Shown: positions 5,981 to 31,200 of the stretch, one piece after another
Numbering within the stretch: the stretch's first letter is position 1
Layout of the letters: every line of letters starts with the position of its first letter
Origin: Zymoseptoria tritici IPO323
Lineage: Eukaryota; Ascomycota; Dothideomycetes; Mycosphaerellales; Mycosphaerellaceae
Assembly (NCBI RefSeq): GCF_000219625.1
Contig: NC_018218.1
Span: forward strand, 1 to 64,000
Length of the DNA stretch: 64,000 bases
Direction of reading: 5' to 3'
Notes under the pieces: model-generated
What the model saw: only the letters and a program-made list of their open reading frames with translations
What the model was told of the DNA's origin: nothing
The model's database searches: none
Made by a program: the position numbers and the translations under genes

Positions 5981-6029
5981 GTACGTTGAAACCCTCCGCC
6001 CTGCACTATCCGCCGCTAACTATCCGAAG
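5981..6029 (+). other. Spliceosomal intron of gene X, 49 nt
   Basis: Donor GTACGT at 5981, branch-point CTAAC at about 6016-6020 and acceptor AAG ending at 6029 fit the fungal consensus. Removing 49 nt moves the reading frame from that of exon 1 to that of exon 2, exactly as needed to join two otherwise incompatible open frames. The same sites persist at 49039-49087 in the second copy. Confidence 0.85.
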
Positions 6030-9340: not shown

Positions 9341-10270
9341 CAGACCCTTTACGAAGGATTTTCGGGTTTCGACTACAACTAACAACACCCGAGCAAGACA
9401 TAGTACTACCGCGGAAGAGGATGGTGAAGAGGAAGCGCGGAGGAGATGAGGTCCAGCGAGTTATCCAAGTATAGATTCGATCCAGACCTGTCCGGCTCCT
9501 CTGATTCGTCGACTGCAAACTCTGAGCCCCACGTCTTAGTCAATTGACCAAGGTAGGTCCGTGTCCGGTCGCGTAGACGAATCGGCCGCGACGGGAGGGC
9601 CGCTACGTCCTCCCCTGCCCATTGGCTGGCCGCAAACTCTGAGCCCCACGTCTTGGTCAATTGACCAAGGTAGGTCCGTGCCCGGTCATGTGGACATAGA
9701 AGCGCACTACTGAACTTTCCTACCCGGACTCCTCCCTCTCTGCTACGACCTTGCCGTCTCCTCCGCTCCGAACTCCTCCATCTCCTGGACTCCGACGTGG
9801 ATTTCGTGTAATCCAAATCTGCTAGCGGGCGAATGAAGATCTGATATATACGATATCGAAGATTGAAAACAGACAATTCTTCTTGTTATGAGCCGCACTC
9901 GGAGCTTGTATTAGTTTCGAAAGAACCCGTCGTGAGGTTAAGAAGTTGGGTTCTAAAAGTATACGTCGAGCCTCGAATTCGTCTGTTCGCCCCGACTGGT
10001 CGGCAGACCCTTAAGAAGGATTTTCGATAGTTAAGAGGAAGCGCGAAGGAGACGAGGTCTAGCGAGTTGTCGAAAGAGCCCTGCTCCAGACCCGTCCGGC
10101 TCCTCTGATTGGTCGACCGCAAACTCTGAGCCCTACGCCTTGGTCAATTAACCAAGGAGGGTCCGTGTCCGGTCGCTAGGACCAATTAGCGTACTGCTGA
10201 ACTTCCCGCTGAGACTCCTCCCTCTCTGCTATAACCTCGCCGTCTCCTCCGCTGGGATTGCCTCTATGGC
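9341..10270. repeat. Repeat region A (right part)
   Basis: Continues the series interrupted by the hAT element, with three more palindrome copies (9535, 9652, 10139) and units starting about 9428 and 10035. The last unit runs directly into the 5' part of LINE copy 1 without a visible boundary. Nothing coding is seen. Confidence 0.7.
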
Positions 10271-10401
10271 CTGTACTGCGAACTGCTCTACCTCCTCCGC
10301 CTAAATGCGGATTGTATCGCTTTCCGGAGCCATGGCTGAAGTCTACCCTTCTCACGATATAGACGATGCTAGGGCAGGCCGGCTACGGATTACGGGTGTG
10401 G

Positions 10402-10880
10402 GCGGATTTCTCGCCCAATGCCGGGATGGGCGGATTCCCAGCCTACCTTGCCGCTGGGCGGATTTCTCGCCTAATGCTAGGATGGGTGGATTTCTAGCCT
10501 ACCTTGCTGCTGGGCGGATTTCTCGCCTAATGCCGGGATGGGCGGATTCCCAGCCCACCTTGCCGCTGGGCGGATTTCTCGCCTAATGCTGGGATGGGTG
10601 GATTTCTAGCCCACCTTGCTGCTGGGCGGATTTCTCGCCTAATGCCGGGATAGGCGGATTTCTAGCCTACCTTGCCGCTAGGCGGATTTCTCGCCCAATG
10701 CTAGGATGGGTGGATTTCTAGCCCACCTTGCTGCTAGGCGGATTTCTCGCCTAATGCCGGGATGGGCGGATTTCCAGCCTACCTTGCCGCTAGGCGGATT
10801 TCTCGCCCAATGCCGGGATAGGCGGATTTCTAGCCTACCTTGCCGCTGGGCGGATTTTCCGCCTAATGCCGGGATAGGCG
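10402..10880 (+). repeat. 56-bp tandem monomers in the LINE 5' region
   Basis: GGCGGATTTCTCGCC recurs about every 56 bp (10402, 10458 and onwards), alternating with GGCGGATTTC and AGCCTACCTTGCCGC segments. A second short block lies at 11125-11250 after an insert of about 250 bp. Copies 2 and 3 have fewer monomers. Because 56 is not a multiple of 3, long ORFs here are not real genes. Position fits a promoter array, as in some mammalian L1 5' UTRs. Confidence 0.88.
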
Positions 10881-11254
10881 GCCTCCGCCTGAAAGCAAAA
10901 CGGAAACTTCTAAGAATTATGGCTTTCTACTTTCACCTCTCGTATCTCGCGCACATAGCTAATTTCAAAGATTCTAAGAATACGGAGAGTAACTCTAGTA
11001 TAAGAAGTTCCTTTCTATGTGTCTATATTTAATTTGAGATCGTTGTTGTAGTGTCAAAAAAGGTCGAGAAACTTGAGGTGTCGCTGCTAGACTGTGTGTC
11101 GGAATTTCCGTTTTGGCTTCCACACCTTAGGCGGATTTCCAGCCCACCTTACTGCTAGGCGGATTTCTCGCCTAATGCCGGGATAGGCGGATTTCCAGCC
11201 TACCTTGCCGCTGGGCGGATTTCTCGCCCAATGCTAGGATGGGCGGAGAGCTGA

Positions 11255-11584
11255 CCTAGCAGCCGAACACGTAAGCGGCCTACACCTCCTGCTCGACGCT
11301 TAAGAACAGCCACCGCAGAAACCTCTACGGACATAGAAGTCCCACGATATAAGAGCCTGCGACGCTAGCGCTACTACGTGCAGCTTTGTTACGCTTTCTA
11401 CCGGGTGCCTGATGAGGAGGGGGTGGTGCTGAATGTAGGCAGGAATTACTACGACGGGAGAGCACTACACTACGTCGTCGAGCTCCTCGTTGGCAAAAAT
11501 ACGCGGATAGCGAGTCTAACGTGGATTCAACGGCCTACAGAGGACGGCTCGGGCACGAGAACGGTACGAGGGAGAACAGATTAA
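11255..11584 (+). other. Possible small ORF0 of the LINE (open stretch, no clear start)
   Basis: A frame open from 11255 to TAA 11582-11584 except for one TAG (11366-11368) at a RIP-type site. It encodes a run with YYVQLCYAFYRVPDEEG and YYDGRALHYVVELLVGK, which looks protein-like. Copies 2 and 3 keep the frame with RIP-type changes. No ATG and no recognised domain, so it could be an exon, a separate small protein or chance. Positions 11585-12276 after it hold only purine-rich then pyrimidine-rich leader sequence. Confidence 0.35.
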
Positions 11585-12276
11585 CGAGAGTAGGGCGGAG
11601 GAGGAGGAGGGAGAAGACGTGGACACAGGAGATTCGAAAGCGAGACGGTAAGGCAACAGACGAGACCGGAGACGAGCTAGGCGAAGGGAGAGGAAGACGG
11701 GAGGATAAAGAGGATATAGGCCTAGTAGGACGGGATGGCATCGAGATGAGGACGATGTAACGATGCCTGGAGAGGACGATATAACGATGCCGGGGACAGC
11801 CCATTCTTAGACTAGGGAGTGGAGGAAGAGACGACGAGCAGGACGAGTAAGTACGGAGGGGAGGGTGGCCCTTTATACCACCACCTTGTCGAGTGTAACG
11901 ATTCTAATCAAGCCGTGGACCCCGGTAGACAGCGAGATGAGAGGATGGCCATCGACGATGACCATCGACGATCGTGAGGCTGACCCTGCTCGTGATTGTA
12001 AGAAGGACGACCACACCCCGGCCCTATAAGAGCCGGATGTGTTCCCTCCTCTCTAGAGCCTCGCTACTATCCGTTTACGCTCTTAGCCTCGGTTTTCCTC
12101 TACGGTAGAGACTTCGAACCATCCGTGAGCACTCTCTGCCTAGGTTGCCCTCTCCTTCGAGTGCCTCCTACTACCGATCCCGACTCGTTACTTCGCCGAC
12201 CTCTCCCTCGACATTCCTCGTAGCTTCCTCCTCCCCTCTACCCTCAGCGTCGCCCTCTCTGCCCTCTAACCCTCGG

Positions 12277-13935
12277 ATGTTATCCAAACCGTCGACAAGC
12301 GCGGTACGGCCCTAGGAAGGTCTGACGGCCTTTGCGGACGCCCTCTAGGAGCTCTACAAGGGCATCATCCCGTGCGGCGGCGAGATCGACCACTTTGGCG
12401 TCCTGAGGAACAAGACCGGACATCCCGACACGGAAGGACGATACTACCGCACCTTCAAGTGCAAGAAGTGTCGTACAAACAAAAGGCGTACCGTCAAGGC
12501 GTGGATTAAGAGCGTCACCGCGGAAATCGGCCGGTCGAGACTTACACTTATAGCGCAAACGATCCTGGACCAGCTTCGTAACTGTGGTGAGGATACGGCC
12601 CAGCTCGTTGCCTAGATTGAAGATCGACTAGAGGAGCCGGTAACCGCGCCGGCGAAGCAAGCACTCGAGTCCGAGTCTTCGATCGAGACCGCGTCCGCGG
12701 ATTGTCGGTTAAGGAAGACGATCTGGCGTAAGGAGGACGTGTTCCTAGATATTGTCTCTACGGATCTTCCTTCTACGAGCATCCCTTCGACGAAGATTCC
12801 GTCGACGAATCTTCCTTCTACAGACATTCCTTCCACGGATATTCCTTCTACGAGGCTCCCTACCGACATCCCTTTGACCAGGCTGCCTTCCATCGACATC
12901 CCCTTAACGATCCCTACTGTCCTCGTCCCGGAGACCGACCCTACCGCGATTCCAGTCGACCCTGTACCGAAGCCTATCGTATAGATACCCTTCTTTTAGA
13001 AATACGCCGAGGCCTGCCTAATCTGCGCGGCGAAGGAGACGAAGCGATCGGTTGACCGCCTCCTGTACACCCTGGGCGAAGGTCCTCCTTATCGCTCGGA
13101 CGAAGGTCCTCCTTATTGCTCGAGTAAAGATCCTCCGGACCCTCCTGGACCTAAAGACGGCGCGAGCGAGTACTAGAAGGAATTGAGACCCGCTACGAAC
13201 GGAGCCCCACCGCCTGGCCGGAACGACGCGCGAGCAGAGTCGATTGAGGAGAGACGGCGGAGGAAGAGTCTTCCGCACTGTTCCGTCGAGGAGAAGCGCG
13301 GAGGGAAGAGTGTTCCTCCCGAGGTGCGACCCTACGACCTCTTTCCTAGTAAGGACTACGACCTTCTCTCGCCCTTTTCTACGGCATCCGTCCCTCCTCC
13401 CCTTGTGCCCTCTCCGGATACGCCCTCTCCTGCAAAGGCGAAGGAGCTTACTCCCTTTCCGTTCTCTTCGTCGGGATGGTGGAGGCCGTGGATCGCGGAC
13501 TTAGCCGCGCGTGCCGAACTGGTGACGCCCTCCCCGAAAGCGAAGACCTTCCGGATTCTCTCCGCGGAGCCGAAGCTACGAACGAAACCGACCTCTCCTT
13601 TAGCGGACCGTAAGCGGAAACTACTCTAACCCCGCTCCGTAAACCTTCCCAGGAGATCGTCTGCGGATTAGGTCCGCGAGTTCGTCGATCGCTATCAAGA
13701 AGCCAATAACAAATTCAAAAGGCGAGTAGTGCGGCAGAAGGCGAAGAGTACTAGCGTCTTCGACGAGTTTAAAGCCGAGCTGATACGGCAGGGGCTGGAA
13801 GAGGAGCCGGCAGGACGGGAGGATGGCCTAGGCTCGAAGAGAGAGACTCGAGGAGCATCCTCTAAGAGAGAGAGTCGAGAGGCATCCGGGGGAGGCGAGT
13901 CCTCTCGCGGGTCGCGAGACCAGGAGGAATGCTAG
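12277..13935 (+). pseudogene. Telomeric LINE copy 1 ORF1: zinc-finger-like, repeat-rich protein
   Basis: ATG 12277 to TAG 13933-13935, 552 codons if the RIP stops are ignored (TAG codons plus a TAA at 13627-13629, each one base from CAG, TGG or CAA). Residues about 32-64 hold a possible zinc site (PCGGEIDHF then FKCKKC). Residues about 163-208 are a 5-residue repeat (IPSTK, LPSTD, IPSTD). The C-terminal half is basic and proline-rich with a charged tail. LINE ORF1 proteins bind RNA and form the transposition particle; that role is inferred from position. Copies 2 and 3 have exactly the same length, 1659 bp, so the frame was maintained until RIP. Confidence 0.8.
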
Positions 13936-16900
13936 GATTGGATGTATTAACATCCGGGGCTTGGGGGATAATAGGTGGCCGATCTTGGCGGCGCTGATTA
14001 ACGACGACATCCTCGACTACCTCTTTATTGTCGAGACCTGGTTCGTTAAGTATAAGAAGCGCCGAGCGGATCACCGCGTGATTGCGACTACGGTGAAGCC
14101 CGATATAGTGCCGAGAAAGGGTCGCTTGGGCTGTGGGATTCTAGTGATGGGGACGGTACGCGCGCGAAGTTAGCTCACCAGCGAGGCGCAGATCATTGGG
14201 ACGGACGCTATAACCCTGCCGACGGACCGGGGAACGATTAGCGGAGTCTACTTTCCCCCCAAGCGGAAGCCGGATAAGGTCCAGTCTACGCTCGAGGCGG
14301 TTGCCGGCTCGGATGTCGTTCTCGGAGATATTAACGTCCGCTTTAGTAAGATGTCTCTCCAGAGCGGGAAGGCGTCGCCGCTTCCGAGACGGAAGGTCGT
14401 CTCGCGATGGATCGAGGACTCCGCGATGACCCATCTAATGCCGATCTAGGAGCCGATTACAATTGCGGACGCCGTGTGCGAGAAACAACTAACGACTGAC
14501 TACTGCTTTGTCCGCCGGACGCTGCCGCATACGACGCTGGCTCTACCGCGACCGACGGAGAAGATGAATACCGACTATGTCTACTAGCTCTACCTCCAGC
14601 TAGACCCGACTACGGGTACTCCGGGTAGATTAGCCGTACTATATCAACTTCGACGCTATGCAATAAGCCGGCTAAACGACGACGATACGGCGCAGGCGCT
14701 CTGCTATAGCTGGGAGAGAAGGGCGCGGCATCGACGGCATCTATACCATATGAGCGCCGATGTGGACAAGCGGAATGCGGAAATCGTGTCGCTCTGCCAG
14801 TAGGTAAGCGAAGCCGTGCTGGGACTCGCCTCTGCGCGTCGTCGAAATCGTCCTCCGGGTAGACGAAAGGCGGAGGATATAAGTCACAGAGGCGGAGAGA
14901 AGAAGAATAGAGACGGAGAGAAGAAGAATGGAGGTGGAGAGAAGAACGATAGGCCTCGAAAGGCGATAACAGACCTGAAGCGAAAGCGAGCCGAGGATGA
15001 TAACAACGCTACTCGCAAGCCAAAGCGGCTACGCCGCCGTGGCAAGAAGAAGAAGGACTGGCGTCTTAAGGCGATAGCGAAGCCGAATCCGGACGCCGAT
15101 AGCAGGACGCTCGAGACGGTCTGTCTCTATAAGAGAGCGTAGCGCTGCGCGAACGAGAACACACCGCTAGTGCCGACCCCGGCGGGGAAGGCGAGAGGGA
15201 TGATAGCAATCGACGAGGTGACGGAGGGATTTGCCGGTCGATTCGTCTCGACGGCGACCCTCCCAGTACGGGAGATGTTTCCTGTCGACGATCGATCCGC
15301 CTCGCTCTCCTTCTCGATCGACGAGATAATGTAGGAGCTTACCTACCAGGATGCTACGAAGGCCTGCGGAAACGATGGGGTACACATCCGTCTCATAAAA
15401 ACCCTCGCGACGACGAGCTTCCTCCGGATCCTGGCCGCCCTCTACAATTCCTATCTCCGGAATGGTAAGACGCCGCGGAGCTGGAACGAAACTGTCGTCT
15501 GTCTGGTCGTCAAGGACAAGACCCGACGGGAGGATAGTACGATGCCGGCGAAGGACGCTAACAATGTTCGTCCGATCTCGCTGGTGACGATGTTTCGAAA
15601 GGTCTTCGAGCGCCTGCTCCTCCGGCGCTTTGATAGTAGGACATAGGCGAGGATGCATCCTAACTAGGCGGGATTTCGAAGTCACTACTCTACTATGACG
15701 AACGCCGCGGTCGTCCACGCCCTCCTCGAATCGAGCCGGATTACACACGCCGTGTTCCTCGATTTTCAAGCCGCCTTTGACGTCGTGGATCATGTACTGC
15801 TCGCGGACGTTCTACGCCGGCGGAGATGTCCAGAGAACATGCTAGCTCTGATTGCGAGCCTCTACTTTTTCGACGTCTGGTCCTTTGTCGTTTCGGATGG
15901 TACGGCTTCTTGGTGGTTTCCGCAGACGAGGGGAGTTCTGCAGGGCTTACCCCTCTCGCCCTATCTGTTTAACATCTTTATCGATAGCTTGCTCGAGGAC
16001 TTGAATCGACCTGGGACACTCGCCCTGGCCGGCTCTTCCGACGTGATGCCCGCGGCGCCGCCGATTCCTTGCGCGCTGTTCTTCGCCGATAATGGTGTTC
16101 TCCTCGCTACCGACTTGGACGAGGTGCGTGTACTGATCTAGATCCTCGAGCGCTGGTCCTCCGCCAACCGTATCGCCCTGAACATTAAAAAATGCGCCTA
16201 TCTGGCGCCGGCGTCTTCGTAGGAGGCAATCTACCTCTTTGGTGCGGAGGTACCGAGGAGAGAGGTATATACCTACCTCGGATTTCCCGTGACGGCGCGA
16301 GGGATTGACTTGAGGAGGCACCTTAAGAGCCGGCTCGAATAGGCCGGGAAACGAAGCGACTTCCTGACCCTCGACGCGGACGGTTAGGGCTTCGCGCATC
16401 GCCTACGAGTCTATCAGCAGTATCTCGCACCGATGTTCGAGTATGGCGCGCCTCTCCTCGCGGCGTTTGCTAAGGACTCTCCTAAGTTCTGGGACGAGAC
16501 GACTAAGGACGTTGCGAAGCTGACGAAGTAGATCTCGGGTTATACTTCTAACCCTCACTTTACTCGCAATCTCCTGGGAATCTCCGCCCTACCCTCGCGA
16601 TTTAAGGCACTAAAAACTGGCTTTTAGGTCGTAAAGAAGCACGCTCCAGAAGAAAGTCCGCTGCAGAAGTTAGGATTACTAATCTGGAAACCCAAAGCGT
16701 TCTTCCGGCGCTTAACGGAGGACAAGCTCTACGAGAAGTACCGCAAGACACCCGAGTCCTGGCCTCGCGACCGAAGCCTTAGCGAAGACCGCCGTTCTGT
16801 CTAGCGGTTCCTGCGCCAGGAGAGAGAGGAAGATATGGCCAAAGAGGCCAAGAAGTGGAGCCTGACCCGGATTATACCGGGAGAAAGCCGCCTAAAGCGG

Positions 16901-17263
16901 GACTTACGAGGAGCCGATTACTTTTTAAAGGCGCCGCGGTCCTTCTAGAAGCGCTTCCTCTAGTATCGGCGTAGAACCTTCCATACCTATGGTTTCTGCG
17001 TCTGTATGAGCAAATTCATCCGAGGACACGAGACTTGCTACCAGGAAAACAGGACGAGCTGGCTCTCGAGGAAGGAACGACGGGCGAAGCAGAAGATGCA
17101 TAAGAAAATAGGCACTACGAACACGAAGTTTACCGAGGTAGACTTCCTTCTAAATACAGGATGCTGGGAGCGAGCCAACGAGATCCTCGAGCGAATCTCG
17201 ACGAAGATTACGAAGGAGGAAGCTACGAAGGAGGAAGCGGAGGAAGCGGCGGCACAGACCTAG
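13931..17263 (+). pseudogene. Telomeric LINE copy 1 ORF2: APE endonuclease and reverse transcriptase
   Basis: Frame +1 relative to ORF1, overlapping its end; it ends at TAG 17261-17263. N-terminal AP-endonuclease-like domain: INIRGLGDNRWP, IVETW, GVYFPP, VLGDINVRF, and a late NTDYVY where the catalytic His has become Tyr. A Lys-rich EKKN linker follows. RT motifs: NNVRPISLV, FLDFQAAFDVVDH, QGLPLSPYLFNIFIDSLL, FFADN (second Asp of the catalytic pair now Asn), LNIKKCAYL. A C-terminal Cys-His cluster (FCVCMSKFIRGHETC, about 16995-17040) ends the protein. There are roughly 18 TAG stops, all explained by CAG or TGG. No ATG lies at the overlap, so ORF2 may need frameshifting or reinitiation. Confidence 0.9.
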
Positions 17264-17277
17264 TGCACACTGTCCTG

Positions 17278-17480
17278 AGTAGGACGTTAAAAGGCTCCGT
17301 CCGATGAGTAGGACGTAAAGTGACTCCGTCCGATGGGTAGGACGTAAAGTGGCTCCGTCCGATGGGTAGGACGTAAAGTGGCTCCGTCCGATGAGTAGGA
17401 CGTAAAGTGGCTCCGTCCGATGAGTAGGACGTAAAGTGGCTCCGTCCGATGGGTAGGACGTAAAGTAGCTCCGTCGACCC
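17278..17480 (+). repeat. 29-bp tandem repeat in the LINE 3' UTR, seven copies
   Basis: GTAGGACGTAAAGTGGCTCC recurs every 29 bp from 17278 to about 17480. LINE copies 2 (25845-25985) and 3 (61455-61595) carry five copies. The rest of the 3' UTR to 18394 holds no open frame and is nearly the same in all copies. Confidence 0.9.
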
Positions 17481-18394
17481 GGGACGTAAAAGCGGAGATT
17501 ATCCCTCGAGGATAAATTAGGCGTTTACCCTATTGAAAAGGAGTCTCTTCCCTCGAGATGAAAGTAGGCGTCCGATCGGTAGGACGTTAAAAGGCTGCGC
17601 TGCGACGTGGGAGACGTGGGCGACTAGCGAGGCCCGGACTGGCTCCGCACCGGACGATTAACTCTATCCGGAAGGCCTAGTAGTAGATGTGAGGCGTATA
17701 CCCTAGATCTGCGGCTGCTTCCTCTTAAAGCCGGGGAGCGGGAGGGAGAAAACTAGTACCTCTGCAGAGCAGTGGGAGGCTTGGAGGAAAGCGAAGGCGA
17801 CGGCGTAGTAGGGGAGAGGAGTAGACGACGACGATCGCTAGAGGAGGAATTCTAGCCGAAGGGAAGACGGCTCTCCCCAAACCGTTCGGGAAGCACTTAT
17901 AGACTGGTGTACAAGCGGCTCGATCGGAATCGAATGTCTCCGACAGTGGATACGCCGGACGGAAGGAGGACAGAGCTCTACCGAACGGTCTTAAAGCGGG
18001 ATGTTCCCCCTTAACGAGACGGGGTTACAGTTTCGGGCGGATGAGGAGACGCACACCTCGTCCGTTACCTGGGAGGTTTAGAAACCCAAGGTACGATAGA
18101 CGGTAAGCGATTACCGGAGCGATATTTTGCGTTAGGATACAGACTAGCCTATCGGTAGTCTCTCTTTTTGGCGGTTTGGTCAACTCGGGAGATGGTGAAA
18201 AGGACACCGTAAAACGTAGTTGGGCTGGGAGTAGCTGCGGTGCCGTGCATCGCGAGGCGCTTTACGTGGGAGCGTGGGTCTGTTTCCTCCCCTCTGAAGA
18301 CGGCCAAAAGAGCCGGGAGCAAGGGCTTGGATGGGGCTTCAGTTCAGATCAGGTGCAAAGGTAGACTAGCCTATATAAACAAGTACAATGAACC

Positions 18395-18408
18395 CCCTAA
18401 CCCTAAGC
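18395..18408 (+). repeat. Interstitial telomere tract T1: two CCCTAA units plus GC
   Basis: CCCTAACCCTAA follows the LINE 3' end, then GC, then a 5'-truncated LINE starting GGGAAGCAC. Same strand and phase as the terminal telomere. Confidence 0.9.
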
Positions 18409-18926
18409 GGGAAGCACTTATAGACTAGTATGCAAGCAGCTCGATCGGAATCGAATGTCTCCGATAGTAGATACGCTAGACGGAGGGAGGACAGAGCTCC
18501 ACCGGACAGTCTTAAAGCGGGATGTTCCCCCTTAACGAGACGGGGTTACAGTTTCGGGCGGATAAGGAGACGCACACCTTGTCCGTCACCTAGGAGGTTT
18601 AGAAACCTAAGGTACGATAGACGGTAAGCGATTACTAGAGCGATATTGTGCGTTAGGATGCGGACTAGCCTATTAGTAGTCTCTCTTTTTGGCGGTTTGG
18701 TCAACTCGGGAGATGGTAAAAAGGACACCGTAAAACGTAGTTGGGCTAGGAGTAGCTGCGGTGCCGTGCATCGCGAGGCGCTTTACGTGGGAGCGTGGGT
18801 CTGTTTCCTCCCCTCTGAAGACGGCCAAAAGAGCCGGGAGCAAGGGCTTAGATGGGGCTTCAGTTCAGATCAGGTGCAAAGGTAGACTAGCCTATATAAA
18901 CAAGTACAATGAACCCCTAACCCTAA
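18409..18926 (+). mobile_element. 5'-truncated telomeric LINE (3' end only, about 0.5 kb)
   Basis: Nearly identical to 17890-18406 of LINE copy 1, from GGGAAGCACTTATAGACT through TATATAAACAAGTACAATG to CCCTAACCCTAA (18915-18926). It carries no coding sequence. Same orientation as the full copies. 5' truncation is typical of incomplete LINE reverse transcription. Confidence 0.92.
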
Positions 18927-18928
18927 GC
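18915..18928 (+). repeat. Interstitial telomere tract T2: two CCCTAA units plus GC
   Basis: CCCTAACCCTAAGC joins the truncated LINE to the 5' edge of LINE copy 2. The GC before the next LINE recurs at T1, T3 and T5. Confidence 0.9.
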
Positions 18929-20822
18929 CTGCACTGCGAACTGCTCTACCTCCTCCGCCTAAACGCGGATTGTATCGCTTTCCGGAGCTATGGCTGAAGT
19001 CTACCCTTCTCACGATATAGACGATGCTAGGGCAGGCCGGCTACGGATTACGGGTGTAGGCGGATTTCTCGCCTAATGCCGGGATGGGCGGATTTCCAGC
19101 CTACCTTGCCGCTAGGCGGATTTCTCGCCTAATGCTAGGATGGGTGGATTTCTAGCCCACCTTGCTGCTAGGCGGATTTCTCGCCTAATGCCGGGATGGG
19201 CGGATTTCTAGCCCACCTTGCCGCTAGGCGGATTTCTCGCCTAATGCTAGGATGGGTGGATTTCTAGCCCACCTTGCTACTAGGCGGATTTCTCGCCTAA
19301 TGCCGGGATGGGCGGATTTCTAGCCCACCTTGCCGCTGGGCGGATTTCTCGCTTAATGCCGGGATGGGCGGATTTCTAGCCTACCTTGCCGCTAGGCAGA
19401 TTTCTCGCCTAATGCCGGGATAGGCGGATTTCTAGCCTACCTTGCCGCTAGGCGGATTTTCCGCCTAATGCCGGGATGGGCGGCCTCCGCCTAAAAGCAA
19501 AACGGAAACTTCTAAGAATTATAGCTTTCTGCTTTCACCTCTCGTATCTCGCGCACATAGCTAATTTCAAAGATTCTAAGAACACGGAGAGTAACTCCAG
19601 TATAAGAAGTTCCTTTCTATATGTCTATATTTAATTTAAGATCGTTGTTGTAGTGTCAAAAAAGGTCAAGAAACTTAAGGTGTCGCTGCTAGACTATGTG
19701 TCGGAATTTCCGTTTTGGCTTCCACACCTTGGGCGGATTTCCAGCCCACCTTGCCGCTGGGCGGATTTCTCGCCCAATGCTAGGATAGGCGGAGAGCTGA
19801 CCCAGCAGCCGAACACGTAAGCGGCCTACACCTCCTACTCGACGCTTAAGAACAGCCACCGCAGAAACCTCTACGGACATAGAAGTCCTACGATATAAGA
19901 GCCTGCGACGCTAGCGCTACTACGTGCAGCTTTGTTACGCTTTCCACCGGGTGCCCGATAAGGAGGGGGTAGTGCTAAATGTAGGCAGGAATTACTACGA
20001 CGGGAGAGCACTACACTACGTCGTCGAGCTCCTCGTTGGTAAAAATACGCGGATAGCGAGTCCAATGTGGATTTAACAGCCTACAGAGGACGGCTCGGGC
20101 ACGAGAACGGTACGAGGGAGAACAGATTAACGAGAGTAGGGCGGAGGAGGAGGAGGGAGAAGACGTGGACACAGGAGATTCGAAAGCGAGACGGTAAGGC
20201 AACAGATAAGACCGGAGACGAGCTAGGCGAAGGGAGAGGAAGACGGGAGGATGAAGAGGATATAGGCCTAGCAGGACGGGATGGCATCGAGATAAGGACG
20301 ATGTAACGATGCCTAGAGAGGACGATATAACGATGCCGGGGACAGCCTATTCTCAGACTGGGGAGTGGAGGAAGAGACGACGAGCAGGACGAGTAAGTAC
20401 GGAGGGGAGGGTGGCCCTTTATACTACTACCTCGTCGAGTGCGACGATTCTAATCAAGCCGTGGACCCTAGTAGACGGCGAGATAAGAGGATAGCTATCG
20501 ACGATAACTATCGACGATCGTGAGGCTAACCCTGCTCGTAATTGTGAGAAGGACGACCACACCCCAGCCCTATAAGAGCCGGATGTATTCCCTCCTCTCT
20601 AGAGCCTCGCTACCATCCGTTTACGCTCTTAGCCTCGGTTTTCCTCTGCAGTAGAGACTTCGAACTATCTGTAAGCACTCTCTGCCTAGGTTGCCTTCTC
20701 CTTCGAGTGCCTCCTACTACCGATCCCGACTCGTTACTTCGCCGACCTCTCCCTCGACGTTCCTCGTAGCTTCCTCCTCCCCTCTATCCTCGGCGTTGCC
20801 CTCTCTGCCCTCTAACCCTTAG

Positions 20823-22481
20823 ATGTTATCTAAACTATCGACGAGCGCGGTACGGCCCTAGGAAGGTCTAACGGCCTTTGCGGACGCCCTCTAGGAGCTC
20901 TATAAGGGCATTATCCCGTACGGCAGCGAGATCGACTACTTTGGCGTCCTAAGGAATAAGACCAGACATCCCGACACGGAAGGACGATACTACCGCACCT
21001 TCGAGTGCAAGAAGTGTTGTACAAACAAAAGGCGTACTGTTAAGGCGTAGATTAAGAGCGTTACCGCGGAAATCGGCCGGTCGAGACTTACACTTGTAGC
21101 GCAAACGATCCTGGACTAGCTTCGTGACTGTAGTAAGGATATAGCCTAGCTCGTTGCCTAGATTGAAGATCGACTAGAGGAGCCGGTAACCGCGCTGGCG
21201 AAGCGAGCACTTAAGTCCGAGTCTTCGATCGAGACCGCGTCCGTAGATTGTCGGTTAAGGAAGACGATCCGGCGTAAGGAGGACGTGTTCCTAGATATTG
21301 TCTCTACGGATCTTCCTTCTATGAGCATCCCTTCGACGAAGATTCCGTCGACGAATCTTCCTTCTACAGACATTCCTTCTACGGACATTCCTTCTACGAG
21401 GCTCCCTACCGATATCCCTTTAACCGGGCTGCCTTCTATCGACATCCCCTTAACGATCCCTACTGTCCTCGTCCTGGAGACCGACCCTGCTGCGATTCTA
21501 GTCGACCCTGTACCGAAGCCTATCGTATAGATACCCTTCTTTTAGAAATACGCCGAGGCCTGCCTAATCTGCGCGGCGAAGGAGACGAAGCGATCGGTTG
21601 ACCGCCTCCTGTACACCCTGGGCGAAGGTCCTCCTTATCGCTCGGACGAAGGTCCTCCTTATTGCTCGAGTAAAGATCCTCTAGACCCTCCTAGACCTAA
21701 AGACGGCGTAAGCGAGCACCAGAAGGAATCGAGACCCGCTACGAACGGAGCCCTACCGCCTGGCCGGAACAACGCGCGAGCGGAGTCGATCGAGGAGAGA
21801 CGGTGGAGGAAGAGTCTTCCGCACTATTCTGTCGAGGAGAAGCGTAGAGGGAAGAGTGTTCCTCCCGAGGTGCGACCCTACAACCTCTTTCCTAGTAAGG
21901 ACTACGACCTTCTCTCGCCCTTTTCTACGGCATCCGTCCCTCCTCCCCTCGTGCCCTCTCCGGACACGCCCTCTCCTACAAAGGCGAAGGAGCTTACTCC
22001 CTTTCTGTTCTCTTCGTCGGGACGGTAGAGGCTGTAGATCGCGGACCTAGCTACGCGTGCCGAACTGGTAACGCCCTCCCTAAAAGCGAAGACCTTCCGG
22101 ATTCTCTCCGCGGAGCCGAAGCCACAAACAAAACCGACCTCTCCTTTAGCGGACTGTAAGCGGAAACTACTCTAACCCCGCTTTGTAAACCTTCTTAGGA
22201 GATCGTCTGCGGATTAGGTCCGCGAGTTTGTTAATTGCTATCAAGAAGCCGATAACAAATTCAAAAGGCGAGTAGTGCGGTAGAAGGCAAAGAGTGCTGG
22301 CGTCTTCGACGAGTTTAAAGCCGAGCTAATACAGCAGGGGCTAGAAGAGGAGCCGGCAGGACGGGAGGATAGCCTAGGCTCGAAGAGAGAGACTCGAGGA
22401 GCATCCTCTAAGAGAGAGAGTCGAGAGGCATCTAGGGGAGGCGAGTCCTCTCGCGGGTCGCGAGACTAGGAGGAATGCTAG
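20823..22481 (+). pseudogene. Telomeric LINE copy 2 ORF1
   Basis: ATG 20823 to TAG 22479-22481, 1659 bp like copy 1, with the same possible zinc site and PST repeat. It has more TAG and TAA codons than copy 1, including stops early in the frame, and a Cys codon replacing Arg after the CxxC. It cannot be translated to a full protein. Confidence 0.82.
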
Positions 22482-25400
22482 GATTGGATGTATTAATATC
22501 CGGGGCTTAGGGGATGATAGGTAGCCGATCCTAGTAGCGCTAATTAACAACGACGTCCTCGACTACCTCTTTATCGTCGAGACCTAGTTCGTCGAGCATA
22601 AGAAGCGCTAAGCGGATTACTGCGTAATTGCGACCACGGTAAAGCCCGATATAGTGCCAAGAAAGGGTCGCTTGGGCTATAGGATTCTAGTTATAGGGAC
22701 AGTACGCGCGCGAAGTTAGCTTACCGGCGAGGCGCAGATTATTAGGACGGACGCTATAACCCTGCCGACGGACCAGGGAACGATTAGCGGAGTCTACTTT
22801 CCCCCCAAGCGGAAGCCGGATGAGGTCCAGTCTATACTCGAGGCAGTTGCCGGCTCGGATGTCGTTCTCGGAGATATTAACGTCCGCTTTAGTAAGATGT
22901 CTCTCTAGAGCGGGAAGGCGTTGCTGCTTCCGAGACGGAAGGTCGTCTCGCAATAGATTAAGGACTCCGCAATAACCTATCTAATGCCGATCTAGGAGCC
23001 GATTACAATTGCGGACGCCGTGTGCGAGAAACAACTAATGACTGACTACTGCTTTGTCCGCCGGACGCTGCCGTATGCGACGCTAGCTCTACCGCGACCA
23101 ACGGAGAAGATGAATACCGACTATGTCTACTAGCTCTATCTCTAGCTAGACCCGACTGCGGGTACTCCGGGTAGATCAGCTGTGCTATATTAACTTCGAC
23201 GCTATGCGATAAGCTAGCTAAACGACGACGATACGGCGTAGGCGCTCTGCTATAGCTGGGAGAGAAGGGCGCGGCATCGACGGCATCTGTACTATATGAG
23301 CGCCGATATAGACAAGCGGAATGCGGAAATCGTGTCGCTCTGCCAGTAGGTAAGCGAAGCTGTGCTAGGACTCGCCTCTACGCGTCGTCGAAATCGTCCT
23401 CCAGGTAGACGAAAGGCGGAGGATATAAGTAACGGAGGTAGAGAGAAGAAGAATAGAGACGGAGAGAAGAAGGATAGAGGCGGAGAGAAGAAGAATAGAG
23501 GTAGAGAGAAGAACGACGGGCCTCGAAAGGCAATAATAGACCTAAAGCGAAAGCGAGCCGAGGATAATAACGACACTACTCGCAAGCTAAAGCGGCTACG
23601 CTGCCGTAGCAAGAAGAAGAAGGACTAGTGTCTTAAGGCGATAGCGAAGCCGAATCCGGACGCCGATAGCGGGACGCTCGAGACAGTCCGTCTCTATAAG
23701 AGAGCGCAGCGCCGCGCGAACGAGAATACACCGCTAGTGCCGACCCCGGCGGGGAAGGCGAGAGGGATAACAGCAATTAACGAGGTAACGGAGGGATTTG
23801 CTAGTCGATTCGTCTCGACAGCGACCCTCCCAGTATAGGAGATGTTTCCTGTCGACGATCGATCTGCCTTGCTCTCCTTCTCGATCGACGAGATAATGCA
23901 GGAGCTTACCTACTAGGATGCTACGAAGGCCTGCGGAAACGATAGGGTACACATCTGTCTAATAAAAACCCTCGCGACGACGAGCTTCCTCCGGATCCTG
24001 GCCGCCCTCTACAATTCCTGTCTCCGGAATAGTAAGACGCCGCGGAGCTAGAACGAAACTGTCGTCTGTCTGGTCGTCAAGGACAAGACCTAACGGGAGG
24101 ATAGTACGATGCCGGCGAAGGACGCTAACAACGTTCGTCCGATCTCGCTCGTAACGATGTTTCGAAAGGTCTTCGAGCGCCTGCTCCTCTGGCGCTTTAA
24201 TAGCAGGACATAGGCGAGGATGCATCCTAACTAGGCGGGATTTCGAAGTTACTACTCCACTATAACGAACGCCGCGGTCGTCCACGCCCTCCTTGAATTG
24301 AGCCGGATTACACACGCCGTGTTCCTCGATTTTTAAGCCGCCTTTAACGTTATGGATCATATACTGCTCGCGGACGTTCTACGCCGGCGGAGATGTCCGG
24401 AGAACATGCTAGCTCTGATTGCGAGCCTCTGCTTTTTCGACGTCTAGTCCTTTGTCGTTTTAGATTATATAGCTTCTCGGTGGTTTCCGCGGACGAGGGG
24501 AGTTCTGCAGGGCTCACCCCTCTCGCCCTATCTGTTTAACATCTTCATCGATAGCTTGCTTAAGGACTTAAATCGACCTAGGACACTTGCCCTAGCCGGC
24601 TCTTCCGACGTAATGCCCGCGGCGCCGCTGATTCCTTGCGCGCTATTCTTCGCCGATAATAGTGTTCTCCTCGCTAGCGACTTAGATAAGGTGCATATAC
24701 TAATCCAGATCCTCGAGCGCTGGTCCTCCGCCAACCGCATCGCCCTGAACATTAAAAAATGCGCCTATCTGGCACCGGCGTCTTCGCAGGAGGCGATCTA
24801 CCTCTTTGGTGCGGAGGTACCTAGGAGAGAGGTATATACCTACCTCGGATTTCCCGTGACGGCGCGAGGGATTGACTTAAGGAGGCACCTTAAGAGCCGG
24901 CTCGAACAGGCCGGGAAACGAAGCGACTTCCTAACCCTCGACGCGGACGGTTGGGGCTTCGCGCATTGCCTACGAGTCTATCGGCAGTATCTCGCACCGA
25001 TGTTCGAGTATAGCGCGCCTCTCCTCGCGGCGTTTGCCGAGGACTCTCCTAAGTTCTAGGACGAGACGACTAAGGACGTTGCGAAGCTAATAAAGTGGAT
25101 CTCGGGTTATGCTTCTAACCCTTACTTTACTCGTAATCTCCTAGGAATCTCCGCCCTACCCTCGCGATTTAAGGCACTAAAAACTAGCTTTCAGGTCGTA
25201 AAGAAGCACGCTCCGGAAGAAAGTCCGCTGCGGAAGTTAGGATTACTAATCTGGAAACCTAAAGCGTTCTTCCGGCGCTTAACGGAGGACAAGCTCTACA
25301 AGAAGTACCGCAAGACACCCGAGTCCTGGCCTCGCGACCGAAGCCTTAGCGAAGACCGCCGTTCTATCTAGCAGTTCCTACGCTAGGAGAGAGAGGAAGA

Positions 25401-25830
25401 TATGGCCGAAGAGGCTAAGAAGTAGAGCCTAACCCGGATTATACCGGAAGAAAGCCGCCTAAAGCGGGACTTACGAGGAGCCGATTACTTTTTAAAGGCG
25501 CCGCGGTCCTTCTAGAAGCGCTTCCTCTAGTATCGGCGTAGAACCTTCTATACCTATAGTTTCTGCGTCTGTACAAGCAAATTTATCCGAGGATACGAGA
25601 CTTGCTACTGGGAAAACAGGACGAGCTGGCTCTCGAGGAAGGAACGACAGGCGAAGCAGAAGATGCATAAGAAAATGGGCACTACGAACACGAAGTTTAC
25701 CGAGGTAGACTTCCTTCTAAATACAGGATGCTAGGAGCGAGCTAACGAGATCCTCGAGCGAATCTCGACGAAGATTACGAAGGAGGAAGCTGCAAAGGAG
25801 GAAGCGGAGGAAGCGGCGGCACAGACCTAG
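22477..25830 (+). pseudogene. Telomeric LINE copy 2 ORF2 (APE-RT)
   Basis: Same endonuclease and RT motifs as copy 1 (GDINVRF, LSPYLFNIFIDSLL, FFADN). The stretch after the overlap with ORF1 is 21 bp longer than in copy 1, owing to the Lys-rich EKK repeat near 23430-23520. A longer unbroken part remains at 24556-25059, covering the RT palm end and thumb. TAG stops are frequent elsewhere. Confidence 0.88.
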
Positions 25831-26903
25831 TACATACTGTCCTAAGTAGGATGTTAAAAGGCTCCGTCCGATGAGTAGGATATAAAGTAGCTCCGTCTGA
25901 TAAGTAGGATATAAAGTGGCTCCGTCCGATAAGTAGGACGTAAAGTAGCTCCGTCCGATAAGTAGGACGTAAAGTAGCTCCGTCGACCCAGGACGTAAAA
26001 GCAGAGATCATCCCTCGAGGATAAATTAGGCGTTTACCCTATCGAAAAGGAGTCTCTTCCCTCGAGATGAAAGTAGGCGTCCGATTGGTAGGACGTTAAA
26101 AGGCTGCGCTACAATGTGGGAGACGTAGGCGACTAGCGAGGCCCGGACTGGCTCCGCACCGGACGATTAACTCTATCCGGAAGGCCCAGCGGTAGATGTA
26201 AGGCGTGTACCCTAGATCTGCGGCTGCTTCCTCTCAAAGCCGGGGAGCGGGAGGAAGAAAACTGGTACCTCTGTAGAGCAGTAGGAGGCTTAGAGGAATG
26301 CGAAGGTGACGGCGTAGTAGGGGAGAGGAGTGGACGACGACGATCGCTAGAGGAGGAATTCTAGCCGAAGGGAAGATAGCACTCCCTAAACCGTTCGGGA
26401 AGCACTTGTGGACTAGTGTACAAGCGGCTCGATCGGAATTAAATGTCTCCGATAGTAGATACGCTAGACGGAGGGAGGACAGAGCTCTACCGGACAGTCT
26501 TAAAGCGGGATGTTCCCCCTTAACGAGACGGGGTTACAGTTTCGGGCGGATGAGGAGACGCACACCTCGTCCGTCACCTAGGAGGTTTGGAAACCTAAGG
26601 TACGATAGATAGTAAGCGATTACTAGAGCGATATTGTGCGTTAGGATGCGGATTAGCCTATCGGTAGTCTCTCTTTTTTAGCGGTTTGGTCAACTCGGGA
26701 GATGGTAAAAAGGACACTATAAAACGTAGTTGGGCTAGGAGTAGCTGCGGTGCCGTGCATCGCGAGGCGCTTTACGTAGGAGCGTAGGTCTATTTCCTCC
26801 CCTCTGAAGATAGCTAAAAGAGCCGGGAGCAAGGGCTTGGATGGGGCTTTAGTTCAGATCAGGTGCAAAGGTAGACTAGCCTATATAAATAAGTATAATG
26901 AAC

Positions 26904-26942
26904 CCCTAACCCTAACCCCTAACCCTAACCCTAACCCTAAGC
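26904..26942 (+). repeat. Interstitial telomere tract T3: six CCCTAA units plus GC
   Basis: Two CCCTAA units, one extra C, then four more units and GC, between the 3' end of LINE copy 2 and a truncated LINE. The first two units probably belong to the LINE end. An identical tract lies at 62514-62552. Confidence 0.95.
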
Positions 26943-27271
26943 TTTGGAAACCTAAGGTACGATAGACGGTAAGCGATTACTAGAGCGATATTGTGCGTTA
27001 GGATGCGGACTAGCCTATCGGTAGTCTCTCTTTTTGGCGGTTTGGTCAACTCGGGAGATGATGAAAAGGACACTGTAAAACGTGGTTGGGCTAGGAGTAG
27101 CTGCGGTGCCGTGCATCGCGAGGCGCTTTACGTAGGAGCGTAGGTCTGTTTCCTCCCCTCTGAAGACGGCCAAAAGAGCCGGGAGTAAGGGCTTAGATAG
27201 GGCTTTAGTTCAGATTAGGTGCAAAGGTAGACTAGCCTATATAAACAAGTACAATAAACCCCTAACCCTAA
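26943..27271 (+). mobile_element. 5'-truncated telomeric LINE tail, 0.33 kb
   Basis: Begins TTTGGAAACCTAAGGTACG, matches the last 0.33 kb of the full LINEs and ends in CCCTAACCCTAA at 27260-27271, abutting gene Y. Repeated at 62553-62881 with the same truncation point, so the two were duplicated together and not inserted twice. Confidence 0.92.
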
Positions 27272-28222
27272 TCCTCCTCGGATCTTGCGCCCTTTCCCCT
27301 GTTCCGGAGGAAGACTTCTCCCTTTTACGGCTGCGGGACGAGGTTAGGTCGGCGTTGCGTAGAGGACGGGGGGAGTGCGTACTATTACAATGTGAGCCTA
27401 GGCCAGTCCCTGGTCGTAGAGATCTATCCTCTACTTATGCACCGCTCTCCGGATAAGATTGTCGCGCGCCCTACCTAGGTAACTAGCCGCCACCCCCTAC
27501 TCCGCGGGAGTAAGGGCTATATAGCTAGGCCGAAACACGAAGCGGGAGATGTCCCGCTCTACTTGAGCCCGAGTCTTTCCCTGCACCTAGGGAGTCCGGC
27601 AGAGGTTGGAGAAATCTAGCTAGTTTATGTACTCCACCGCAGCCCTCTTATAATCCCAAGTCTCCTCGTAGACTAGGGCCCTACATAGCCGAAGAGCACT
27701 AGGAAGTAGCACTAAGTTGTCCTTATTTTCCTCCGACCTAAAGAGTAGGAATCTAGTCTAGGTGTTACATGCTCCGCCCGGCATACCGGTTATTCCGGGA
27801 ATAATAGGTTTGTCCCGGGCGGTAGTCTCGTAGACCTACTATAGGAGATCTCTCTTAAATTTAGTTAGACTGGCGGGAGCATAGTTGGGGAAGTTCTGCT
27901 CTATTTGGCGCTTGTCCAGAGTTTGGTTTAGGGCATATATATTAGGGAAGACCGGAGCAGCTATGTCGATAATAGTGTGGACGATTGTCGATGTAGGAGT
28001 GCAGTCGTAGTAGAAGGTGTGGGTATGTAGTTGCTAGAGGTAAGGGGTAGTGTGTTGTCGTAAGAGGTGGTAATCGTAGACTGTGTAAAGGTCTAAGGAA
28101 AAGGGGAGGAAAGGATTGCGGAAGTTAATAAAAGAGAGAGGGTTTGAAAAGAAGAATGTAGTCGCTTTTGTGCCCTTAGAGGGGCGACCTGCTAGTGAAT
28201 TCGACCACGTGCTAGCAGTCAC
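27272..28222 (-). pseudogene. Gene Y copy 1: unknown protein gene, cut at its 3' end by telomere repeat
   Basis: A minus-strand frame is open from about 28222 to the LINE/telomere seam at 27272 apart from TAG and TAA codons of RIP type. Stretches include FINFRNPFLPFSLDLYTVY, APVFPNIYALNQTLDKRQI, IIPGITGMPGGACNT and ERDISRFVFRPSYIALTP. The frame runs without a natural stop into TTAGGG repeats, so the C-terminus has been lost. No start codon is obvious; it lies just downstream of the methyltransferase on the same strand. I do not recognise the family. About 315 codons remain. Confidence 0.6.
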
Positions 28223-28259
28223 TAGCTTAAAGCTTGTGATAGTACGTGAATTCGATTAT

Positions 28260-31200
28260 TCACCTGCTGGAATCAGCTAGACGATTATAATACTTTAGCT
28301 ACGCTATTGCACTTACTTCGACCTCGAATTTGTATATCTGCTCTATATATGCGAGCTTTTATTCTTAGAGCAATTTAAGGCTCTCCTAGAACTCTCCGCC
28401 TTCGAGGCTATTAACGTCGCCGACCTCTTCCGGCATAAATAACAGCATTTTGGCGGTACGATTATCTAATTCTTTAATGTTTAGGCGAGCGCTAGGACTA
28501 ACTTAAGATGTCGATGGTGCTATTAGGGCTCGTAACTGCTCTTCTTCTTTAAGCGTACCTCTAGTAGCGACCGAGCTTGAATCTCCTTCGATCTCGACGT
28601 CTTCGTCCTTAGTCGGCGTTGCAGGTTGCGAAGCCTCTATAGTAATATCGGTTCCTATCTCTTCTTCGACATGCTCGTTACGGATCTCACTTGCTCTTAG
28701 AAATAATAACTACGATCGAGCTTGCTCCTACGACTCTCGTAAAGACAGACCTAGCACGAGCGCTACTTTCCTATTAACGCTATTGCCGACGATCTTATGT
28801 TACTAAGTAGGGCTACCTATTAGAACCTCCTAGTCTTAATAGCCCTAAGCTCGCCTCGCTTCTATAACAGTCTAGATCCGATTCTAAGACTAGTATATAA
28901 AACGTCTATTAATGCTATCTCCGATAGCGGTCTTAGTAACGATAGTTGGAAAGAGGCTATTTAGGAACATTCGCGAAAACATTCTCGAGTTCTCCTGCCG
29001 ACGGGTTGCGTTAACGTTGTCGCAGAATGTTAAGGGTTCTCCGCGTAGAAGCCCGAGCAATTTAGCCTATATAAGACCTATCCTGTACAGTCGAGTAGGC
29101 ACAGCCGCCATCCGTATTCGGTTTGTTGCCGACTCTAGCGACATAGTCCGATAGTCTGGGAATTACAGGCAAAGCTGCGGTTGCGCATCTCTAATGTCTA
29201 GTAAGTCGGCGTAAGCCTACGCCGGAGTAATATATAGGAACGTAGTAAACTCGTCTTTGCGACTGCCGAAAGGCAGGCCGTTGCTCGAGAGGCCAAGTGC
29301 ACAACTTCTAAAGCTTATATTTAGATAACTGTAGCTATAAGGAATTAGCGACAGTAGTAGTAGACTAGGAGCGGAAGCAGAGATAAACACTCGTAATCGT
29401 TGCTATAGACTACTGTGCGACCAGGCATCGCCCAGGAATTGCTAAACTTAATAACTAAGTGCGACTAAGGCCGTAACGATTTGTAATAAAAACACATTCT
29501 AATCTTTATTCGGTCCCATCCCGGCCGTTATTGTAATAACGTTCTTAAGGAGGAAGTACCGCAGGACGTAGAAGTCTACAAATAATACGATCGACGCTAC
29601 TAGCGAAGCGTTCTACTTAGACTGCTCGCTAAGCTTAAAGAGCTGTAGCATCGAAAATCCGGGGCATGGACTTCCGCCTATAAGAATGTAAATATCTCCT
29701 GGCTACGCGATGTTCGACTTTGGGTCGCCCGCTATAGCTCTAGCAAGCAAGTCGTTAACTAAGCCTAGGAAATACTCCATTCTATCCGGCCGTCGAACGT
29801 TTGCCTAGTAGCTGTGCAACGTATATTTATTCTAGTCGGCGGTATACTTGAATCTAGCGATACCGGCTTCTTCCAAGCTACGGTTAAAGGTTCTACTACC
29901 GTAGAAGAGACTTATCCCGACTATTTTCTCGCTATAGTACATATTAGGATTCTATCCTTCTTTCATCGGTGGGAAACTATCTCGTGCTACTAAAAGGTCT
30001 TCGGCGAGGTAAAAGAAATCGCCAGTCCCGTCTCGGTCGTACAGCGTAATAATGTCTCTAGAATCGATTTGGTCTTAACGAAAGTAGCGCACATAGCACT
30101 TCCGGATGATTTTGTCGCATGCTTTGTCAAATACGACGTCCGTAAGTACTAGCTCGTTCGGCCTAGCTTTCGCGCCTGTCTACTGCTCGCTCTTCCGCAA
30201 GAATTGACGCAGAACGACGCGCCGCTTCTAGGTATCGAACTTAATGATTTAGGCAGGCTAGAGCCGGTCCTCGTTAAGGTTGTTATTCCATTTGCGGACG
30301 AGGACAGTGTTACTAATTGCATATTTGCTCTAGCACTCGTCGAATATAGGAACGTTATGCTTGTACTAGCACCTGAAGTCGCTTGCTTAAATTGCAACGA
30401 AGTCGTATGTGTCTTGCTCGTGAACTGTGCGGAACTTCTGGCGTACGAAGTGTCCTCCCTGCTAATATAGATCCTTAGTATACTAACATACCTCTGCCTT
30501 ATCTAAGACGTAATCTAGGTCGAGAGCCGATGTGCCGTAGCTACAGTTGTTAGACAAGAAGAGCTTATTCGCAAAAGGGTAATAGGCTTTGCTAAGTGTA
30601 GTGTCCTTTAGCTCGTATAGCTAGAGAACATCAAGCGAAGTACGATCTTTGCGAGTATATACGTTCTAAACATAGGCATACTATGCGTGCGCTTTAATCC
30701 CCTATTTAGTACTAACATCCGGCGCGACGCATACAACATCCCCTGTGTTTACCGTGACTGCTTTGTTCCCCTCTTAAGATTCGCTTCGGCTTATACTCCT
30801 AGGCGTTAAGGTTTGTATTAGCGGTGCACTCGGAGATGCTCGTCGCAGCGTTAGTCTAAGCCTTGCTTTTAGCTTATCCGACTTCTTTAGTACATTTCGG
30901 TCCGTGATCGTCCGCTCTTCTAGCTAGTTACCGAAGTACATATGTTAAAAGCACTAGTAGACAAAAGGCGTAACGATCGTTCGCAACTCCTTGTTTAGCT
31001 ACGCTAGGATAGCTGTAAGATTATAGGGATCGACTTTACCCTAGATCGGTTGTTAGCACAATCCGGACTCTTTGTTATCGATATCCTAGCATTCTTTCTA
31101 AAGGAAGCCGACATTTGCGGCAATAGTCGTGCGGAAGTCTTTAAGTTTGCATTCAGCTAGCTATTAGTTAAAGCTAGTGTCATCGCCGTAGAGTCTAGTT

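Follow-up and report, generated by a model that had tools for sequence, protein, structure and literature searches.

HeT-A and TART of Drosophila attach to chromosome ends with their 5′ ends outwards, serve in place of telomerase and terminate in oligo(A), and TRAS1 and SART1 of Bombyx mori, members of the R1 clade with a poly(A) tail, are inserted inside (TTAGG)n. The element treated here has its closest published counterpart in "family 4" of Mycosphaerella graminicola, a subtelomere-only retrotransposon without long terminal repeats (LTRs) for which 34 full and 49 truncated copies were reported, in one orientation, with 3′ telomere repeats directed inwards from the telomere and with full copies of 3.4–3.5 kb (Dhillon et al., 2014; PMC4522978). 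Family 4 was labelled a putative Penelope-like element lacking an endonuclease, pairing with the single-stranded telomere was already proposed for it, and large subtelomere blocks common to different chromosomes were described (PMC4522978). The present analysis concerns a long interspersed nuclear element (LINE) in the first 64,000 nucleotides of C1, the largest contig (NC_018218.1) of Zymoseptoria tritici IPO323 (C1:1–64000, hereafter the window) and its copies throughout the genome (39,686,251 bases in 21 contigs, whose ends are written C1L, C1R and so on). The window starts at the left chromosome end, positions 1–120 being (CCCTAA)20. Copies of the LINE were found only at chromosome ends, all facing the same way; judged by conservation and predicted fold, the element is of the type with an apurinic/apyrimidinic (APE) endonuclease, at least 8 kb long and equipped with a first open reading frame (ORF1), and it is probably telomere-targeted, inserting at short or newly healed ends.

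The 3′ ends of the LINE were sought in all 21 contigs with a degenerate 32-base pattern tolerant of repeat-induced point mutation (RIP), the reversed pattern serving as control and giving no match. All of the 79 3′ ends found (41 on the plus strand and 38 on the minus strand, all listed) belong to copies whose 5′ end is directed towards the nearest contig end. The most internal of them lies 85,342 bp from a contig end, at least one copy is present on 34 of the 42 ends, and the zone within 86 kb of contig ends, which contains all 79, makes up about 9% of the genome. A DNA search with the reverse transcriptase (RT) region gave 40 scored copies (of 49 candidates) that obey the same orientation rule without exception, up to 68,193 bp from the end, and the 46 rows of a protein search with ORF2 (40 of 156 candidates scored) all lie, by eye, near contig ends. 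The preliminary description of this DNA had regarded internal or reversed copies as speaking against its reading; genome-wide, none was found among the 79 3′ ends, with the limit that interior copies too mutated for the pattern and RT searches could escape both.

Every one of the 79 3′ ends runs into at least one telomere-like unit, and none carries poly(A). The sequence ACCCCTAACCCTAA stands exactly at the start of 68 junctions, in the same register, while the other 11 depart from it at one or a few positions; a single unit only is seen at one 3′ end (C4, L058). The tracts measure 8–60 nt (median 25 nt; at most 48 nt in 77 of 79), with three to four units as the commonest length in the genome, and are irregular in 48 cases, with units such as CCCTAAA or CCCTATAA. 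Because these tracts are short against the 15–27 perfect units of the terminal telomeres at ten termini examined, insertion appears to have taken place at short or newly healed ends, or else long tracts have not survived. Beyond the tract, 20 junctions pass into another LINE, with 19 different cut points among them, and 59 pass into non-LINE DNA, where the one shared junction pair is the window's own duplication. Since 77 of the 79 junctions are distinct, segmental duplication was rejected as the sole cause of the pattern.

Telomere motifs were found at 124 places, of which 100 were listed and 74 given with sequence; at least three perfect units occur at 25 of the 74, and by eye 14 of these are LINE-linked, nine terminal and two neither. 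The two-unit motif CCCTAACCCTAA was considered as a diagnostic mark of the LINE and rejected, as it is also present in chromosome interiors. Isolated AACCCTAACCCTAAG motifs in chromosome interiors (e.g., C2:418939 and C6:1289144) are perhaps promoter boxes. An irregular telomere-like tract (CCCTATAACCCTAACCCTAAA and one variant), not LINE-linked, recurs near ends in the opposite orientation among the places listed (Table 1).

The copy with the fewest stops, L040 (C21:9200–19100), has an ORF1 of 657 amino acids from stop to stop, followed by an ORF2 frame of 1,187 amino acids with two TAG stops; every scored copy has stops in ORF2, from two to more than 50 (40 scored of 156 candidates). On ORF2, an APE-type endonuclease stands N-terminal to the RT. 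The latter matches PF00078 (RVT_1) at E 2.6e-28 over residues 580–828 and is nearest to R2 and L1 chains among the 16 PDB sequences listed, which include no telomerase. In the endonuclease, N21, E49, Y121, D147, N149, D229 and H230 are invariant in an alignment of 43 sequences (L040 and 42 relatives), and by comparison with the L1 endonuclease these residues are presumed to have catalytic roles. Among 99 family members, some of them N-terminally incomplete, endonuclease motifs I, II, IV and V were counted in 56, 86, 87 and 94, respectively, and a C-terminal CCHC in 82, while the restriction-enzyme-like endonuclease (REL) motif (CCHC...RHD) and the GIY-YIG motif were found in none of the 99. 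The predicted model of the domain (pLDDT 92.2) matches the folds of L1 (E 4.9e-10), APE1 (5.7e-9), TRAS1 (1wdu; 6.0e-9) and R1 (2.4e-8), with TM scores of about 0.6 and identities of 11–14%, and in Pfam, at E up to 1, PF14529 is hit by 12 of the 43 members (best 4.8e-5) and PF03372 by eight (best 2.5e-5). The closest proteins are mostly unnamed environmental sequences with 51–57% identity over 55–59% of the query. The top relative (P0007), filed under the plant Escallonia rubra on a contig of 35.7 kb, is probably fungal DNA in a plant assembly. A scan of genome contigs for the relatives' loci gave only distant RTs (19 loci, 21–40% identity), a scan of viral contigs gave none, and no ORF1 homologue was found at E 1e-3.

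The DNA on the far side of the tracts can in part be compared with unbroken copies. Such a copy is available for 12 of the 59 non-LINE flanks, and none shows a telomere repeat at the break (self-matches 26, 29, 37, 41, 70, 71 and 72 and the weak matches 65 and 67 not counted); examples are the pairs L016/L097 and L025/L071, and L029 compared with L002, L004, L005, L007 and L008, which are five copies of an RT-bearing repeat. For the LINE-internal breakpoints, compared at 19 of the 20 junctions with the duplicate omitted, the bases displayed show an unbroken LINE without telomere repeat in 18 of the 19 given, junction 14 having matched itself. The overlap between telomere and unbroken DNA has a mean of 1.47 nt at 17 clean joins (of 23 junctions), against 0.67 nt in random joins, and reaches at least 2 nt at eight of the 17 (p 0.003); the joined copy lacks the DNA distal to the break. 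Such features are characteristic of chromosome healing and fit either telomerase or the LINE as the adder of the first repeats.

At the present chromosome ends, all ten termini examined, picked mostly because a LINE copy is near, carry simple telomere repeats as their cap. A telomere of 17–27 units stands at most 4 nt from a 5′-truncated LINE at C10L, C4L, C7L, C11R, C15R and C1R, and within 19 nt of one at C5R, which makes seven of the ten; at C11R, two LINE remnants lie in series beneath the terminal telomere. At C1L, C21L and C7R, the telomere sits directly on non-LINE DNA, with the first LINE of C7R 362 nt further in. CCCTCA variant units stand beside the breakpoint at the LINE-free ends C1L (window 121–136) and C21L (L097, 130–165) and at the LINE junction C4:7570.

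Many copies are 5′-truncated, at differing points. Going upstream, matches drop from 79 at the 3′ end to 35, 32, 25, 22 and 20 (partial rows excluded except in the counts of 35 and 20; the 32 rests on 40 scored of 103 candidates), and no common 5′ start was found. Because the fall is smooth and lacks a common start, it does not choose between a long element and erosion of ends. Position 10271 is not the 5′ end of the element, since other copies, immediately preceded by telomere repeats, begin at 9849 and at about 9898 in window-equivalent coordinates. The segment 8800–9300 of the window has a 92% match at C10:1541108–1541608 (minus strand), 141 kb from the contig end.

The reading preferred here, held with good though not full confidence, is that of an APE-type LINE targeted to telomeres at short or newly healed ends. 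The evidence for it includes, beside the distribution and orientation of the copies, the predicted endonuclease and the breakpoints, the fixed 3′ end, which passes in constant register into telomere repeats, and the telomeres standing directly on truncated copies. A sense RNA ending in about two CCCUAA units would pair with the TTAGGG strand of such an end, either at a free 3′ end or at one made by the endonuclease, and would be copied from its 3′ end towards its 5′ end, which would leave the 5′ end of the element facing outwards; such pairing and copying would give precisely the orientation of the copies. Telomerase would re-cap the often truncated product, and later rounds, breakage and end-to-end copying would build arrays and move neighbouring DNA, including a fragment of dim2. 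The pairing model of the preliminary description accounts for the orientation, but a normal telomere overhang would leave some 15–27 units on the centromere side, in contrast to tracts with a median of 25 nt. Several observations weigh against the preferred reading. The constant register suggests that the transcript itself encodes the repeats, yet two to three target units in a fixed register would look alike, and the tract with the CCCTCA variant at C4:7570 points to telomerase having acted first in at least one case. The N-terminal 240 residues of L040 alone match no Pfam family, the endonuclease assignment resting on the relatives and the model, and the mean overlap omits the six of 23 junctions with inserted or mutated bases. 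Moreover, the 5′ end was not located, and terminal erosion could account for part of the "truncated" copies; the segment 8800–9300, occurring inside C10, may not be part of the LINE.

The short tracts would also be expected if the endonuclease nicked inside ordinary long telomeres, with insertion anywhere in them and later breakage or shrinkage of the long interstitial tracts, which is a real possibility falling somewhat short of even chances. An APE-type endonuclease appears to be present, as judged by conservation and predicted fold, interstitial tracts of at least three units reportedly often break in Magnaporthe oryzae, where the stable ones have at most two (PMC7367193), and tracts of more than four units are described as rare inside Pyricularia chromosomes (PMC8381367). 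By analogy with the breakage in M. oryzae (PMC7367193), the short tracts may partly be survivors. However, short tracts are likewise seen in the copies situated within 1 kb of the present terminus, which presumably belong to the youngest, and the three- to four-unit tracts called unstable in M. oryzae (PMC7367193) are the commonest here. Alternatively, the LINE RNA could itself heal broken, telomere-less ends, its CCCUAA tail annealing to a few bases and slippage of the LINE RT giving irregular repeats, with telomerase acting later on the outer side. This is rather unlikely, even if it fits the brevity and irregularity of the tracts beside the perfect terminal telomeres, the 12 non-LINE junctions whose unbroken copy lacks a telomere repeat at the break, the small sequence overlaps above chance and the division of the 25 places with at least three perfect units into LINE-linked, terminal and other. 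Against it, telomerase alone heals here too, as shown by the telomeres on non-LINE DNA at C1L, C21L and C7R, and at one LINE junction the CCCTCA variant suggests that telomerase acted before the LINE. Furthermore, short tracts could be survivors if long interstitial ones break, and the irregular telomere-like tract of opposite orientation occurs without a LINE at six listed places near ends. It is speculative, and unlikely, that the LINE acts as a chromosome-healing system whose repeat-bearing RNA would seal broken ends before telomerase, fix the orientation and expose captured DNA (dim2) to spread and RIP.

Two further explanations were considered. Were the pattern a by-product of copying between ends, one LINE-bearing subtelomere would have been spread by recombination with its orientation conserved; large duplicated subtelomere blocks indeed exist in the window and between chromosomes (PMC4522978), and about 20 places share the DNA that precedes the LINE, dim2 included, but the 77 distinct 3′ junctions, the differing truncation points and the upstream fall in matches from 79 to 20 render this improbable. 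An endonuclease-deficient Penelope-like element, as proposed in 2014, would agree with the described position, orientation and 3′ repeats (PMC4522978), yet deserves almost no credence in view of the APE-type endonuclease domain, the lack of GIY-YIG in all 99 members and an RT that is nearest, by sequence search, to the LINE proteins R2 and L1, with no telomerase, among the 16 PDB sequences listed.

Within the window, LINE 3′ ends lie at 18406, 18926, 26915, 27271, 62525 and 62881, all on the plus strand and each closing with CCCTAACCCTAA, which confirms that six copies share one orientation and the same two telomere units (Table 1). The six 3′ ends are present but are not six independent events, two blocks being duplicates. 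By self-comparison of the window, 135–28390 matches 30032–64000 piecewise, 19732–28390 and 55342–64000 form one duplicated stretch (94.7%), 135–604 and 1409–3286 are duplicated as 30032–32365, and 3285–10657 matches 46196–54981 piecewise. The truncated copy after copy 2 is present, together with its flank, in both blocks. This duplicated structure implies that copy 3, together with the truncated copy beside it, corresponds by duplication to copy 2 and the truncated copy that follows it. The telomere tracts described between copies exist at 26901–26940 and 62511–62550, where there are more than two units, but not at 18406/18408 and 18926/18927, where the element's own two units stand alone. A 13.8 kb insertion at 32364–46195, found in the second block only between 278-bp direct repeats (96%), is probably an LTR retrotransposon. 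About 43 copies of TTTATTAG lie at 51821–52163 in the second block, no such array being listed for the first, and another tandem copy of the block 30032–64000 seems to start past the window at C1:66689, with a spacing of 35,610 bp.

Table 1. Features of the window and telomere-like tracts elsewhere in the genome (positions refer to the window unless a contig is given; UTR, untranslated region).
Feature	Position	Strand	Remarks
Terminal telomere	1–136	+	20 perfect CCCTAA units (1–120), then CCCTCA variants
LINE copy 1	10269–18406	+	10269 is the start point of copy 2, not a proven 5′ end; homology extends upstream
28/56-bp tandem repeats, 5′ region of copy 1	10399–11247	+	two arrays
ORF1 of copy 1	11962–13932	+	decayed; 93% to C21 copy
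ORF2 of copy 1	13889–17260	+	APE endonuclease, then reverse transcriptase; decayed
APE-type endonuclease region, copy 1	13931–14608	+	predicted; by residue arithmetic, domain evidence from C21 copy and relatives
Reverse transcriptase RVT_1 region, copy 1	15542–16288	+	position by residue arithmetic
29-bp tandem repeats, 3′ UTR of copy 1	17276–17475	+	
3′ terminus of copy 1 with two telomere units	18392–18406	+	
5′-truncated copy	18408–18926	+	begins at equivalent of 17887; closes with CCCTAACCCTAA
LINE copy 2	18927–26915	+	ORF1 20511–22478, ORF2 22435–25827
Telomere tract between copy 2 and next truncated copy	26901–26940	+	
5′-truncated copy	26941–27271	+	begins near equivalent of 18077; CCCTAACCCTAA, then non-telomeric flank
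LINE copy 3	54592–62525	+	ORF1 56121–58088, ORF2 58045–61437; from 55342 on segmental duplicate of copy 2
Telomere tract	62511–62550	+	duplicate of 26901–26940
5′-truncated copy	62551–62881	+	duplicate of 26941–27271
CCCTATAACCCTAACCCTAAA-type tract	C1:6087873, C2:3824853, C2:3847523, C5:2830188, C6:14340, C8:4262		opposite orientation

Upstream of the LINE, two frames on the same strand at 4543–6036 and 6077–7183 (517 and 370 amino acids in C21) may belong to a longer element or represent a passenger gene; the upstream ORFs match no Pfam family over the cut-off except in the dim2 fragment. This decayed dim2-like DNA methyltransferase fragment lies antisense to the LINE, at 135–3634 and 30032–32365 on the minus strand, and is cut by the telomere. 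It contains DUF7893 (E 3.5e-32), with BAH (4e-4) and RFD (0.04) below the cut-off, and has 20 subtelomeric matches (one partial) besides one interior locus, C6:1268974–1270608, homology to which extends to window position 3634. Subtelomeric dim2 copies flanked by LINEs, named only as a LINE family, have been described (Moller et al., 2021; PMC8016269), and the window LINE is probably this neighbour. The LINE beside the amplified dim2 copies is thereby given a name and a structure, which suggests a route for the amplification that preceded the loss of this DNA methyltransferase (PMC8016269). How chromosome ends come to be healed can be tested directly in the 19 published telomere-to-telomere genomes (PMC9970103). 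Overall, the interpretation of the preliminary description is partly supported: an APE-type LINE found only at chromosome ends, with its 5′ end telomere-ward and its 3′ end on telomere-like repeats, is borne out by the genome census and the predicted endonuclease fold.

TRAS1 and SART1 resemble the window LINE as telomeric LINEs with an APE-type endonuclease; the window LINE differs in that it has no poly(A) and closes with CCCTAACCCTAA. HeT-A and TART take the place of telomerase, whereas here all ten ends examined are capped by simple telomere repeats. Endonuclease-deficient Penelope-like elements probably belong to a different RT lineage from that of the window LINE. They share with it the 3′ telomere repeats and the pairing idea but have no endonuclease (as cited in PMC4522978). 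Family 4 is almost certainly the window LINE, the two being alike in genome size, chromosome number, subtelomere habit, orientation, 3′ repeats and copy number (here 79 3′ ends), although family 4 as published is 3.4–3.5 kb long and without endonuclease (PMC4522978), whereas the window LINE is at least 8 kb long, with ORF1, a predicted APE endonuclease and a LINE-type RT. The published length would fit the part 3′ of the 21-bp repeats (14888–14946), which takes in the RT and leaves out the endonuclease. In the article listings and passages searched, with few subscription journals among them, no later report of an APE domain in family 4 was found. The window LINE had been suggested to be a separate case; the family, its orientation, the 3′ repeats and the pairing idea have been known since 2014 (PMC4522978), while the APE endonuclease, ORF1 and the length of at least 8 kb go beyond that description and correct the identity under which the family, borne by 34 of 42 chromosome ends in a well-studied genome, was published. 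MoTeR of Magnaporthe and FoTeR of Fusarium oxysporum are likewise fungal non-LTR elements at telomeres with 3′ telomere repeats and truncated copies in arrays (PMC7367193; PMC12857005). In MoTeR, the 5′ end is directed telomere-ward, as in the window LINE (PMC7367193), and FoTeR has variable number tandem repeats and RIP (PMC12857005). The LINE stands apart from these elements, as the preliminary description had thought possible with regard to MoTeR: both carry a REL endonuclease, with FoTeR and MoTeR1 placed in the CRE/SLACS group (PMC7367193; PMC12857005), in contrast to the N-terminal APE domain of the window LINE and the lack of a REL signature in its 99 family members. An APE-type element with the same habit alongside the REL-type ones points to more than one origin of telomere targeting among fungi, each with the same orientation.

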